Assembly (NCBI RefSeq): GCF_001577755.1
Contig: NZ_CP010776.1
Span: 682,001 to 746,000, forward strand
DNA length: 64,000 nucleotides
Origin: Rufibacter sp. DG15C
GTDB taxonomy: Bacteria > Bacteroidota > Bacteroidia > Cytophagales > Hymenobacteraceae
Direction of reading: 5' to 3'
Notes under the pieces: model-generated
Database searches by the model: none
Seen by the model: the letters and a program-made list of their open reading frames with translations, nothing else
What the model was told of the DNA's origin: nothing
Part shown: positions 52,817 through 57,700 of the stretch, in pieces
How the letters are laid out: every line of letters begins with the position of its first letter
How positions within the stretch are numbered: the stretch's first letter is position 1
Translations under genes and position numbers: made by a program

Positions 52817-54040
52817 TCAATCCTTGTAAGGGTCAAACACTTCGTCACTGGCCATGGCCACACCTAATGGTCTAAGTGTGTGCAGGACTTTGATGGTGTT
52901 GCCTTGGTATTGGAGGACGTCTTCCAGTTTCTTGTAGGCCTCTGGGGCTTCATCTGCGCCGGCACCGCGTAGTTCTATTTTGCGGGCTTTCATGCGCATC
53001 TGCACCTGGTCAAAATCTATGAGACCCGGCGAGATGATGGTCTTGCGCTTGACGCCTCTCCTATCGCGTATCCATTTGGTTTTACCGGCGGCGGCGCGTC
53101 TGCTCATGACCCTGCCCGCGCCGTGCACCGTGGAGTACAAGCCTCTGATGGAAAGCTCACTTTCCACACCTTCAATGATGACGGAATTGTCATGCATGTT
53201 GGCGCCAATAAAGCCTTTCTGACCCGGGAAAGCGGGCGTACAGCCTTTGCGAACCACCCAGTATTCTTCACCCTGATGCTTCTCAAACCACGCGAAGTTG
53301 TGGTGGTTATGGATAAGTTCGGTGCTCTGCGCGCCTAGAATCTCCAGCACCTTCTCCACCACCACGTCGCGCCCGGCATAGGCGTATTCTCCCGCCAGGC
53401 CCATGGCCGAGATGTAGTCCTGGCCCAGTTCTGAGTGGATGTCGAACAAGATGGGCGGGCCGTCCATAGGCCCTTCTTTGGCTTTGTCAAAAAACGAAAG
53501 ACCCTGTGACATGGCAATAAAGCCTGAGGCGGTCTTGTGCCCAAAGCCCCTTGACCCGAAGTGCACGCCAATCCAGAGAAAGCCTTTCTCGTCCTCAAAC
53601 AAATCAATGAAATGGTTGCCACTGCCCACAGTGCCTAATTGTGCCGATGCCATTTTAATCATTTCGCGCTGGGGTTTGAAGTCGGCGTTTTGGATGTGCT
53701 CCAGCACCGGATGGTCCACGCGCTTGGGATTGGGCCTACCCACTCCGAAGCCAATCTGGTCTACTATCTCATCCATGATGCGGGCAATGTTCACATCGCT
53801 GGCCAGCACGTTGGTCTTGACGGCCTTGTTGCCACAGCCAATGTCAAACCCCACCCCAGATAGAGACACTTTGTTTTTATACGCCACTGCCCCGCCTATG
53901 GGGTGGGCGTAGCCATAGTGGGCATCGGCGGTGAGCACACCAATGTCTCCCTCGCTCACACAGCGCTGTATCTGTTCAATGGCGCTCTGGTCTATGATTT
54001 CCTCCCCGAAGACCGTGATGTTGTTGATTACCGTAGCCAT
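52817..54040 (-). CDS. rtcB: RNA-splicing ligase RtcB
   Basis: 407 residues of the RtcB family, which joins a 5'-OH RNA end to a 3'-phosphate or 2',3'-cyclic phosphate with GTP and Mn. Metal-site motifs are GVGFDIGCGNKAVKTN, GTVGSGNHFID, WIGVHFGSRGFGHK and NHHNFAWFEKH; the guanylated histidine lies in STVHGAGRVMSR near residue 303. Late motif: KKLEDVLQYQ with KVLHTLRPLGVAMA. It is the shorter bacterial type. No archease or RtcA gene is next to it. Roles in bacteria are in RNA repair after toxin or stress cleavage. It is convergent with the PepSY gene. Confidence 0.95.
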   Translation of the reverse strand: MATVINNITVFGEEIIDQSAIEQIQRCVSEGDIGVLTADAHYGYAHPIGGAVAYKNKVSLSGVGFDIGCGNKAVKTNVLASDVNIARIMDEIVDQIGFGVGRPNPKRVDHPVLEHIQNADFKPQREMIKMASAQLGTVGSGNHFIDLFEDEKGFLWIGVHFGSRGFGHKTASGFIAMSQGLSFFDKAKEGPMDGPPILFDIHSELGQDYISAMGLAGEYAYAGRDVVVEKVLEILGAQSTELIHNHHNFAWFEKHQGEEYWVVRKGCTPAFPGQKGFIGANMHDNSVIIEGVESELSIRGLYSTVHGAGRVMSRRAAAGKTKWIRDRRGVKRKTIISPGLIDFDQVQMRMKARKIELRGAGADEAPEAYKKLEDVLQYQGNTIKVLHTLRPLGVAMASDEVFDPYKD

Positions 54041-54084
54041 AGCTTTTGAGTTGGTGGCTTAGGCTATACGAGAAAAAGTGAGTT

Positions 54085-54122
54085 CGTTTTTGGGTTGTTT
54101 TGGGGAAAAGAGGCAGAAACAG
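54085..54122. repeat. 38-bp palindrome, copy 21 (degenerate)
   Basis: CGTTTTTGGGTTGTTTT, GGGG, AAAAGAGGCAGAAACAG. It lies 45 bases upstream of the rtcB start and left of the GIY-YIG element. Confidence 0.78.
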
Positions 54123-54215
54123 GTTGAGACGCTAGTAGGAGCTACACGCACTACGAGGTAATTTAGTTGGACGTACTTGAGTTAGGGATAAACGGAAATA
54201 CCTGCACTCTCCCTC

Positions 54216-54244
54216 TTTTGTCATCCTGAAAGGACCTTGTGGGC
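54216..54244 (+). repeat. Left 29-bp inverted repeat of the GIY-YIG element
   Basis: Exact inverse complement of 54572-54600. It contains an inner TCCT-GAA-AGGA pair and ends 20 bases before the nuclease ATG. Confidence 0.95.
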
Positions 54245-54264
54245 GTACTAGCCAGACAGAACCT

Positions 54265-54561
54265 ATGAAACAACATAATTACTTCGTCTACATTACTAGT
54301 AATCCAAGTAAAACTGTTTTATACACAGGGGTAACCAATGATTTGGAAGCTCGCCTACAGCAACATAAAGACAATAGAGGAAAGCCGGACACTTTCGCTG
54401 GTAAATTCTACTGCTATAAATTGTTATACTATGAACGCTATGCCAATGTAGAGCAGGCGATTGAAAGAGAAAAGGAAATAAAGTTGCTGGGTAGGCAATC
54501 AAAGGAAGAGTTGATAAAGACAATTAATCCGAAAATGGGTTTCCTTTACATAGCAAGCTGA
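54265..54561 (+). CDS. GIY-YIG nuclease family protein
   Basis: 98 residues, a single minimal GIY-YIG domain of the YhbQ/UPF0213 type. The two motif strands read YFVYITS and VLYTGVTNDLEARL, followed by QQHKDNRG, a Tyr-rich strand CYKLLYYERYANV and the helix EQAIEREKEIKLLGRQSKEELI. The active-site Arg and Glu positions appear present. It is AT-rich compared with rtcB and the protease on either side, which hints at separate origin. The coding frame fills the space between 29-bp inverted repeats, so the gene may travel with them. Substrate unknown; family members can cut DNA flaps or structured DNA. Confidence 0.9.
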   Translation: MKQHNYFVYITSNPSKTVLYTGVTNDLEARLQQHKDNRGKPDTFAGKFYCYKLLYYERYANVEQAIEREKEIKLLGRQSKEELIKTINPKMGFLYIAS

Positions 54562-54571
54562 GTTACAACTT

Positions 54572-54600
54572 GCCCACAAGGTCCTTTCAGGATGACAAAA
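54572..54600 (-). repeat. Right 29-bp inverted repeat of the GIY-YIG element
   Basis: Perfect inverse complement of 54216-54244, starting 10 bases after the nuclease stop. Confidence 0.95.
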
Positions 54601-54622
54601 AGGGGGTAATGGATTGTGAGCT

Positions 54623-54660
54623 CGTTTTTGGCCTATTTCTACCAAAATACGCCAAAGACG
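54623..54660. repeat. 38-bp palindrome, copy 22
   Basis: CGTTTTTGGCCTATTTC, TACC, AAAATACGCCAAAGACG. It lies 54 bases past the tricorn-like protease stop and right of the GIY-YIG element. Confidence 0.82.
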
Positions 54661-54662
54661 AA

Positions 54663-54692
54663 AGAAGCCCTGCCAAATCTGGCAGGGCTTCT
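54663..54692 (-). terminator. Hairpin after the tricorn-like protease gene
   Basis: AGAAGCCCTGCC pairs with GGCAGGGCTTCT around six bases. The T tract on the minus strand is short (TTTCG), so strength is uncertain. Confidence 0.7.
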
Positions 54693-54714
54693 CTTTATCT
54701 AATCGAATCTTGGA

Positions 54715-57700
54715 TTACTTCTTAGGCAGTTCCTGTAACAGAACCTCCACGGCTTTCTCCAGCTGTTGGTCACGGCCTTGGGCGGTTAAAGCTGGTTCAT
54801 TGGCTACCAGGTAGTCAGGCTCCAGTTGGGTGTTCTCTAGGAACTTGCCGCCTTTCAAGGTGCGGTAGCCAATCTGCGGAATCCCGAAGACCATGGTAGG
54901 GTCAATCAACGTTTCCCACCAGACAAACGTACCGGTTCCGGCCACGGGCATGCCCACGGTTTTACCCAGGCCCAGCTCTTTGTAGAGCATCGGGAAGATG
55001 TGCGCGTCTGAGTAGTTGCTTTCGTTCATAACCACCACCGACGGCTTCGTCCATTTGTTGCGAGGCTCATCTGAGAGGTGCTGGTTGCGCGGGATAAACT
55101 CGGCGTAGCGTTTGGTGTTCAGGAAGCTGATGAGGTCATCATGCAGGTTTCCGCCACCGTTGGAGCGGGTGTCCACGATGAGGGCCTCTTTGGTGGCATT
55201 CTTGCCCAGCGCGTCCTCGTACACGGTGCGATAGCTGGCGTCGTTCATGCCCCGTATGTGCACGTAACCCAACCGACCACCCGACAGGCGGTCTACTTTT
55301 TTCCGGCGGTTCTCCACCCAGCGCTGGTACAGGAGCTCGCTCAGCTCACCGGTGTTGATGGGCTTCACGGTCTCTTCCCAACGCGTTTTGGTTTTCTCAT
55401 CATACAGTGAAACCAGCGTGTACTTACCTGATTTGCGGTTGAGAATTTGGTCCAGGTCCGTGTTTTCCTCGATGGCCTGTCCGTCAATCATCTCAATCAC
55501 CACGCCCGGTTTCACTTTGGAACTGGCGCGGTCAAACGGACTCAGGTTGATGACTTCCTTCACCTTCAAGCCTTTGCCAGTATACTGCTCATCATAGAAC
55601 AAGCCTAAAGAAGCAGTGGCATCTGGGTTGGTGGCGCGGTGGCTGTAACGACCGCCCGTGTGCGAGGCGTTTAGTTCGCCCAACAGCTCGCTCAATACAT
55701 CTGCGAAGTCATAGTTGTTGGCGATGTGAGGCAGGAACTGGCGGTAATTCTCTGTGTTGGCTTTCCAGTCTACGCCGTGCAAATCAGTTACATAGAACTT
55801 CTGCTCCAGTTCCCGTATCACGTGGTCGTACATGTAGGTGCGCTCAGCAGAGGCGTTCAGGTTCATCTCGCCGTTTACTTTGAGCGTTTCTTGTTTGCCG
55901 TTCTCGGTGTCCAGCTTGAGGATTTTGCCTTCGGTGAGCACGAACAGGTTTTTGCCGTCTTTGCTCATGGCCATGTCACCACCGCGGGCGCCTAGTTTGG
56001 CCAGCAGTTTGGTGTCATTGTCGCGCAGGTTAGTCACCCACAGGTCGTATCCTTTCTCGAAGCGGGTTAAATAAAACAGTCGGTCACCTTTAGCTGAAAC
56101 CACTGCGTCTGCGATGTCTGAAGACGTACCCGTCAGGCGGGCTTTGCGGTAGGCCAGATTGTCCAGTTCCATGGTCATGCCCGCAGGCGCCATGGTTTTA
56201 GGAGTTTCTCCTTTCTTGCCCTTACCTTTCGGCTCGGCTTTCTCAGCTTGGCTTCTGGCTTCGGTTTCGCGCTTCTCCAGGTCTTCTAGCAAGTTATAAT
56301 CATCCTTGCTCAGCTTGAAGCGGTCAAAGGCATCTTGCGTGGTGAACAGGGCATAAATATCGCCGGTGCCCGAGTTATTGCCGTTGCCCCGAAGGCCTTC
56401 GCGGTTAGAGTAATAGATAATCATCTTACCACCCATCATCCACTGCGGGCCGTTTTCATAATAACCGCTTTGGGTTAAGTTTCTAATGGCGCCGGTACCC
56501 GATGCAGACACTAAACCTACTTCACTCACCCATTGCTTAGGCTGGTTGTACTGCACCAGAAACCACTTTCCGTCTGGTGACCACTCATAGTACTGGTCGC
56601 CGTCTGAGTAGGAGTAGTTGTTGGCGGTGGTCATGATGTCACGCACCTGCTTGGTGGCTTTGTTAACTACGCGCAACTTTACCCGGTCTTCCAGAAACGC
56701 CACTTCTTTGCCGTCTGGCGAATACGCCGGCTGGAACTCCTCTGCTTTGGGATTGGCGATGACCACGTCTTCCTTTAGAATGGTAGACGCATAGAAATAC
56801 GGCTCATTGGCACGTACCAGGCTGGCTTCATACACGTTCCAGCTGCCGTTGCGCTCGCCGGCGTACAGAATCTTGCGGCCGTCCGGCGAGAAGCTCACGC
56901 TCCGCTCCTGCTCCGGTGTGTTGGTGATGCGCTTGGTGATGCCGCCCTCCACCGAGGACACGAACACCTCCCCGCGGTTCACGAACACCACTTCTTTGCC
57001 GTTCGGCGATACTTCCATTTCGGTCATGCCACCCGAGATGGGCAACACCGTCTCTTGGTTGGCCCGAATATCTGAATACAGTTGGATGGCTACTTTTTGC
57101 GGTTGTGCGCCCGGTTTCTGGGTGTAGATTTCGCCATTGTAGGTAAAGGACAATACGCCGTCTTTAGAACCGCTCAAGTGCCGTACCGGGTGTTTGGTGA
57201 AGTTGGTGACCGCGGTGCTTTGCTTCGGGTTTTGCAGGCTTAGCTTGCGTACGTTAAACGTACCGTTGGCTTGTTCGCTCAAATAATACACGTCCTGCCC
57301 GTTGGCCGCCACCATAGGCTGACGGTCTTCGCCGGCATTATCCGTGAGTTTTGTGTGCTGTTTGGTTTTGGCGTTGTAGGCCCAGATGTCACGGGTGATG
57401 GACGAAACATGGTGCTTGCGCAAGGCATTCTCGGGGCCTTTGCGGTCTTGGTACACAATGACGTCACCAGCAGGGCTGTAACGAGCGGACTCGGCGGGCG
57501 TGGTCAAAACCATGCTGTTCTTGCCACCGCTCACCGGCACGCTGTACAACTCCGGGAACGCCCCCGATGGGAACATAGAGTTGTTGGCCGCATCCAGTCT
57601 GGCCGCCGTGAACAATACGTTCTTCCCATCCGCTGAAAAATCTGATGGCAAATCTCCGGAGGAGTTAAAGGTCAGGCGCCTGGACTCTCCGCCCTGGGCC

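Follow-up and report, generated by a model that had tools for sequence, protein, structure and literature searches.

A GIY-YIG nuclease gene between tagged hairpin repeats in Rufibacter: a probable REP/RAYT-like system with a nuclease in place of the transposase

In their 2013 survey, Di Nocera et al. sorted most bacterial REPs into the GTAG and CGTC superfamilies, noting that intergenic regions are favoured by REPs and that CGTC REPs "apparently lack a dedicated transposase"; CGTC-positive species include S. meliloti, A. lipoferum and N. aromaticivorans (PMC3733652). The locus reported here resembles REP/RAYT systems (REPtrons, REPINs) in that a nuclease gene is flanked by tagged hairpins which are high-copy and paired elsewhere in the genome, and also in its cognate repeat types, low gene copy number and mainly vertical inheritance. 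It differs in its enzyme, a GIY-YIG nuclease where a RAYT is an HUH/Y1 transposase, and in its tag, which is TGTC, CGTC or CCTC here but GTAG in RAYT-linked REPs. Because the enzyme is of another class, we do not file the system as a RAYT, though it appears to work like REP/RAYT.

The CGTC REPs (including dRS3 and Rickettsia RPE; PMC3733652) share their CGTC/TGTC/CCTC tag with the repeats that flank the nuclease genes of Proteobacteria, most of which also have an 8-9 bp stem beginning with AT, a 4-5 loop and the CCA tail. The repeats of Bacteroidota share the tag and the AT start, but have shorter stems, other loops and no CCA tail. While CGTC REPs are without a known dedicated enzyme (PMC3733652), the repeats described here are paired with a nuclease gene. 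MITEs and insertion sequences likewise combine terminal inverted repeats with short non-autonomous forms derived from a gene-bearing form; here, in contrast, there is no DDE or other transposase and no target duplication was seen. GIY-YIG homing endonucleases are well known, and share with this system the catalytic domain and, probably, a selfish spread. They differ in that here there is no intron or intein, the terminal repeats are the element's own, and the protein of ~98 aa is the domain alone.

The locus lies in a window of 64,000 nucleotides, 682001-746000 of the Rufibacter sp. DG15C chromosome, and positions are given within this whole stretch of analysed DNA. Among named genomes, Rufibacter species are its closest relatives. 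Inverted-repeat analysis of the window identified 34-nt arms (54211-54244 and 54572-54605) with 94% complementarity, which contain a perfect 29-bp core (54216-54244 and 54572-54600; left arm TTTTGTCATCCTGAAAGGACCTTGTGGGC, right arm its exact complement). One 98-codon gene lies between them on the forward strand (54265-54561), with a gap of 20 bases to the left arm and one of 10 to the right. The features are as follows.

54207..54219, + strand: pyrimidine tract outside the left repeat, ending in TTTT (76-97% pyrimidine outside the core across 67 ends)
54216..54244, + strand: left terminal repeat, perfect 29 bp, with the TGTC tag at 54219-54222, then the short hairpin TCCT-GAA-AGGA and the tail CTTGTGGGC
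54245..54258, + strand: GTACTAGCCAGACA, a subterminal B end (consensus in the family, GAACTAGACAGGC) that precedes the gene and has the polarity seen in most other elements of the genome
54265..54561, + strand: GIY-YIG nuclease gene, 98 aa (PF01541; catalytic residues invariant in 21 homologues; AlphaFold2 pLDDT 93.9)
54562..54571, + strand: subterminal A end, GTTACAACTT, from element comparison within the genome
54572..54600, - strand: right terminal repeat, exact inverted copy of the left repeat
54597..54606, - strand: matching purine tract outside the right repeat, AAAAAGGGGG, from the sequence and the 67-end comparison

A first-pass annotation, made from the sequence alone, had described a 98-residue GIY-YIG gene between perfect 29-bp inverted repeats, some 10-20 bases from each, AT-rich compared with its flanks and accompanied by no transposase. 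The coordinates, the measured spacing and the PF01541 match agree with this, as does the G+C content (~38-39% in the nuclease gene vs ~52-58% in the flanking genes). The GIY-YIG gene is the only one that the element encloses; a transposase carried within it, whether DDE or HUH/Y1, was considered and discarded, none being among the genes found there. Three other readings were set aside: an RNA or riboswitch, with no Rfam family reaching its curated score in 53900-54900; a gene inside a self-splicing intron or intein, the gene being free-standing and intergenic with the same Rfam result; and a defence or phage gene, with no match in PADLOC or PHROGs.

The repeat in the window carries TGTC followed by AT, which is unpaired in this copy (GGACC) and paired in many others (GGATC). 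It has a stem of 4-5 bp, a loop of 3 and the tail CTTG, with no 8-9 bp stem, 4-5 loop or CCA tail; since it matches the four published CGTC families in neither stem length nor tail, we regard it as CGTC-like and do not file it as a member. The 4-5 bp hairpin within a single Rufibacter repeat folds no better than shuffled sequence. A complete 88-bp element, taken as a single strand, has a strong fold (z=-11) that one end by itself does not have, so the true substrate may be the paired form.

The nuclease matches PF01541 with E=8e-14 and 52.1 bits, against a curated cut-off of 22.6. Among the residues invariant in 21 homologues from Bacteroidota, Cyanobacteria and Proteobacteria are Y9, Y20, G22, T24, R30, H34, E69, K73, R77, N88 and P89, and these include the expected GIY-YIG catalytic set of Tyr, Tyr, Arg and Glu (Y9, Y20, R30 and E69); by sequence the active site is intact. 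AlphaFold2 predicts a confident fold (pLDDT 93.9), for which the top structural matches are a UPF0213 protein and Slx1, the latter being the closest fold outside the small-protein family when the predicted model is compared. Slx1 is a nuclease that cuts branched DNA. Among PDB sequences the nuclease matches 1zg2 (E=1e-5) and 1ywl, both UPF0213 small GIY-YIG proteins that are alike in fold, size and sequence; they differ, in a comparison by record only, in that no repeat association is on record for the solved proteins.

Within the 4.14-Mb genome, the 25-nt repeat core (54220-54244) occurs in 63 copies with up to 3 mismatches while the reversed-pattern control gave 0, and the inverted repeats are thus far beyond chance. 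We inspected 39 repeat sites individually. Most are inverted pairs with outward-facing tags, mostly 87-155 bp long, so the repeat exists throughout the genome both with the nuclease gene and, mainly as short paired elements, without it, the two states that the first-pass annotation had proposed to look for. Element sizes fall at 87-88 bp (8 elements), 135-155 bp (11), 222-301 bp, 377 bp (the gene-bearing element of the window) and, in a few cases with other content, 582-1303 bp. Most paired elements combine a single B end (GAACTAGACAGGC) with a single A end (GTTACAACTT type) and share the polarity of the gene element, where B lies upstream of the gene; a few, e.g., L063 and L043, have two B-like ends. 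The start-codon context of the gene, GGCNATGAAAC or a close variant, is kept in 7 of the 11 elements of 135-155 bp, which for that reason look like internal-deletion derivatives. Furthermore, a 582-bp element retains the last codons of the gene (GCAAGCTGAGTTAC) after another small gene. Just outside the core, pyrimidines make up 76-97% at each of the nine nearest bases (67 ends compared).

Some features of individual sites deserve mention. The pyrimidine tract outside every repeat keeps its strand composition and not its sequence, and may belong to the element or to the target. Three one-B/one-A pairs enclose unrelated small genes, namely L042 (G000:C1:473977-474558), L051 (1125002-1125618) and L049 (878296-879598); L042 retains the 3' tail of the nuclease gene, as if the cargo took the place of the nuclease, and the L049 unit is missing in the nearest relative, G009. 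At L050 (G000:C1:922468) the A and B ends of the short element are swapped relative to the orthologous site in G009, as if the interior had been inverted in place. The 870-bp repeat pair at L043, in which two B-like ends surround a peptidyl-prolyl isomerase-like gene, was excluded from the element count.

Comparison among relatives points to movement of the element. R. latericius carries an element whose 81.5% identity covers precisely the span bounded by the two repeats (window 54212-54606) and does not extend into the 3-kb flanks, which show no similarity, and at the window locus (rtcB to a tricorn-type protease) the gene is found in 0 of 13 relatives, some of which have short repeat pairs there. 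The first-pass annotation had weighed mobility against repeats found nowhere else and a gene fixed at one locus; the repeats are genome-wide and the element occupies different loci in relatives. An ordinary fixed gene with chance repeats was rejected on the 63 genome copies, the other locus in R. latericius and the absence from the window locus in relatives. That annotation had also suggested looking for empty sites and target duplications. Here the presence or absence of the unit is clear at the searched loci, with flanks too diverged for exact junctions, and we obtained no target duplication or base-exact empty site at the window locus, the thiolase site described below, the Azospirillum and Sphingobium loci or across ~1.2 Mb of the nearest Rufibacter genome.

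A nuclease homologue is present in 12 of 16 Rufibacter genomes, and broken gene copies are found in G007, G010, G013 and G015. Most copies occupy one of two gaps beside a thiolase gene and, given this conserved site, the gene itself moves rarely; as with RAYTs, its inheritance is mainly vertical, with occasional moves in between. The window's own genome has a second nuclease copy at the thiolase site with a second repeat type. Across the thiolase region (L194-L209) both gaps repeatedly hold a nuclease element, and in G014 type 1 lies in one and type 2 in the other; the gaps are possibly a preferred or ancestral site. In Rufibacter, type 1 proteins go with repeats ending in CTTGTGGGC and type 2 proteins with repeats containing CTYGGTGGC. 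On the protein tree the repeat type changes once (shuffled mean 5.2, shuffled minimum 2), and the L159 protein, which branches between types 1 and 2, has one repeat of each type; linkage within the element explains part of this agreement. The median repeat count is 23 in Rufibacter genomes without the gene vs 62 where it is intact (p=0.017), and a second genus gives a weak link (3 without vs 9 with, p=0.07), in tests that ignore phylogeny. Repeats persist in genomes without the nuclease gene.

These patterns bear on whether the nuclease serves the host. As a housekeeping enzyme it would act at replication forks, where trimming or resolving the hairpins and cruciforms of REPs would make the repeats less harmful, and would lie near REPs through regulation or co-inheritance, the repeats themselves spreading by, e.g., replication slippage or template switching. 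The similarity to Slx1, a cutter of branched DNA and the closest fold outside the small-protein family, would suit such a role, as would the strongly conserved active site and the mainly vertical inheritance at one site in Rufibacter. However, patchy presence, broken copies, gene units at different loci and short elements resembling deletion products of the gene element are all traits of mobile elements, and we consider the housekeeping role unlikely.

We examined the best 80 homologues in one-genome-per-species data. Flanking inverted repeats scoring at least 14 accompany 45 of the 80, vs 0 of 71 shifted controls. A [CT]GTCAT-tagged hairpin lies within 250-280 bp of 58 homologues, on both sides in 38, and 22 have none by the detector used; tagged-hairpin density is 3.56/kb beside the genes vs 0.077/kb beyond 800 bp, a 46-fold excess. 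All of stem positions 3-5 pair in 52 of 65 loci (shuffled mean 9.6, maximum 18), with several pair types per position, a figure that is indicative rather than exact because choosing the matching loop somewhat favours complementarity. Four compensatory stem variants coexist in one Pedobacter genome (ATTCT/AGAAT, ATGCT/AGCAT, ATACT/AGTAT and ATCCT/AGGAT). Hairpin repeats tagged with TGTC, CGTC or CCTC flank GIY-YIG genes of this subfamily in Bacteroidota, Proteobacteria and other phyla, and TGTCAT hairpins, read by eye, adjoin Spirosoma and Planktothrix plasmid genes.

Three repeat patterns drawn from repeats beside the genes were counted in 12 genomes. TGTCATTCAGVAGGAA has 229, 19, 5, 46 and 31 copies in the five genomes where it accompanies the GIY-YIG gene and 0 in the other seven; TGTCATTTCGAACGAGGTACGAGGAGAAATC has 46, 57 and 10 in three Mucilaginibacter and 0 in nine; TGTCATTCTGAGGMACGAAGAATCT has 58, 31 and 15 in three Pedobacter as well as 16 and 1 in two Mucilaginibacter, and 0 in seven. 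Reversed controls of all three gave 0. The flanking repeat is a high-copy repeat of the nuclease's own genome, with nearly block-diagonal counts over the 12 genomes, in a comparison that asks whether a repeat is multi-copy at home and absent elsewhere; taken alone, it does not distinguish a causal link from common ancestry.

Searching plasmid records with the window nuclease as protein query returned 30 records, mostly from alpha-proteobacteria, including the CGTC-positive S. meliloti, A. lipoferum and N. aromaticivorans. Two plasmid-labelled records of 3.7 and 4.9 Mb (CP090106.1 and NZ_AP026896.1) look like chromosomes, and the first holds, e.g., gltA, lpxB and ntrC. At least two CGTC/TGTC/CCTC hairpins lie within 400 bp at 10/10 screened proteobacterial loci, compared with 0-5% of 800-bp windows in 50-kb stretches from six of the same replicons and with 4/45 and 2/29 ordinary genes, i.e., 6/74 or ~8%. 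The tag, the 8-9 bp stem, the 4-5 loop, the CCA tail and head-to-head pairs are found in S. meliloti, Shinella, Rhizobium, Azospirillum, Photobacterium and others, and in Sphingobium and Novosphingobium the tag and stem are retained without the AT start or the CCA tail. By these features the repeats beside proteobacterial nuclease genes fit the published CGTC REPs. In S. meliloti Ak57, one of two nuclease genes is accompanied by CGTCATCCTCGGGCTTGACCCGAGGATCCA and the other by CCTCATYCCTGTGCTCGTCACAGGRATCCA, i.e., different repeats accompany paralogous nucleases within one genome.

The presence of the unit also varies among relatives in Proteobacteria. In Azospirillum lipoferum it lies between sufB and sufC, and A. 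ramasamyi, A. oryzae and strain B510 are without it there; the remaining Azospirillum matches span only the two flanking genes. Shinella and Rhizobium relatives have the flanking genes without the nuclease unit, and the Shinella and Azospirillum units consist of the REP dimer and gene together. Beside fnrL in Sphingobium, some strains have REP-gene-REP, two have a lone hairpin tagged at both ends and one has neither. Deletion between equal stem arms would give exactly the lone double-tagged hairpin seen at L232 and L233.

A selfish GIY-YIG gene could alternatively land in existing REPs: it would cut REP loci and be copied into them through inter-REP recombination, with the REPs moved by something else. 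Homing endonucleases are a known precedent, and both the units of REP dimer plus gene in Shinella and Azospirillum and the lone double-tagged hairpin at a Sphingobium site of REP-gene-REP in other strains speak for such a parasite. Yet each repeat type tracks its nuclease and is abundant where that nuclease occurs and, because short elements keep gene remnants, derivation seems to run from the gene element to the repeats and not solely in the opposite direction; we therefore find this account improbable. Mere coincidence, with small intergenic genes and REPs gathering in the same gaps and an unrelated transposase moving the REPs, would draw on the preference of REPs for intergenic regions (PMC3733652), but is barely credible against the 46-fold hairpin excess beside nuclease genes, the 10/10 proteobacterial loci vs ~8% of other genes on the same replicons and the nearly block-diagonal repeat counts.

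We conclude that this is probably a REP/RAYT-like system with a GIY-YIG nuclease in place of the HUH transposase, and that the element in the window is the gene-bearing form of a REP-type mobile family. The sequences show the association, the cognate repeat types, the compensatory stem changes, the presence and absence of units and the intact active site; cleavage and mobilisation by the nuclease are inferred. Against the reading stand the failure to find a target duplication or base-exact empty site, the repeats in genomes without the gene, the weak copy-number link in the second genus, the single conserved thiolase site of most Rufibacter copies, the poor folding of the lone Rufibacter hairpin and the 22 homologues with no tagged hairpin. 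The first-pass annotation, borne out in part, had drawn the same analogy and suggested a minimal element with its own terminal repeats, and this much the genome-wide repeat, the differing loci and the cross-phylum pairing strongly support. Action of the nuclease on these repeats, which it also put forward, is a prediction, and no target duplication was found.

In the mechanism that we propose, the unit consists of two REP-like hairpin repeats, TGTC tags outward, around the nuclease gene, and the nuclease would serve TGTC/CGTC-tagged REPs as their dedicated enzyme, in the way that RAYTs serve GTAG REPs. The short forms, i.e., those of ~88 bp and the internal-deletion derivatives of 135-155 bp, would be non-autonomous, REPIN-like members. 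The nuclease may recognise the tagged hairpin when single-stranded or extruded, e.g., at replication forks, and nick next to the tag. Host replication or repair would then copy the released or primed hairpin unit to another intergenic position, a step that we assign to the host because DNA hydrolysis, without strand joining, is all that is expected of a GIY-YIG enzyme.

This nuclease may spread a major class of bacterial palindromic (REP) repeats whose enzyme has long been missing. We are evenly divided on the broader proposal that several phyla contain a kind of prokaryotic mobile DNA not described before, whose TGTC/CGTC-tagged hairpins are spread by a GIY-YIG nuclease alone, with neither transposase nor recombinase, and which would explain the enzyme-less CGTC REPs. 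No paper joining GIY-YIG proteins to REPs was found in the open-access literature, and earlier work may exist elsewhere. For CGTC REPs there is now a specific candidate enzyme, small and expressible, whose matched substrates occur in many genomes, so that the question of their enzyme can be tested directly. If the nuclease mobilises REPs, DNA would be disseminated by a hydrolytic nuclease alone, of which we found no description for bacterial transposable elements in the open literature, and a nuclease shown to move REPs would define a new class of mobile element.

The palindromes neighbouring the element had been put forward by the first-pass annotation as a further target of the nuclease. The one at 54663-54692 proved to be a separate terminator-like hairpin, which appears unrelated to the nuclease and its repeats and was discarded as part of the system. 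At least two other palindromic repeat families occur in Rufibacter intergenic regions, one of the CGTTTTTGGCCTGTTTTC...GAAAACAGGCCAAAAACG type and one of the CTCGTAGTGTGCGCAGCTCCTACGAG type, e.g., at 54078-54100 and 54616-54638 in the window and at L046 and L056.
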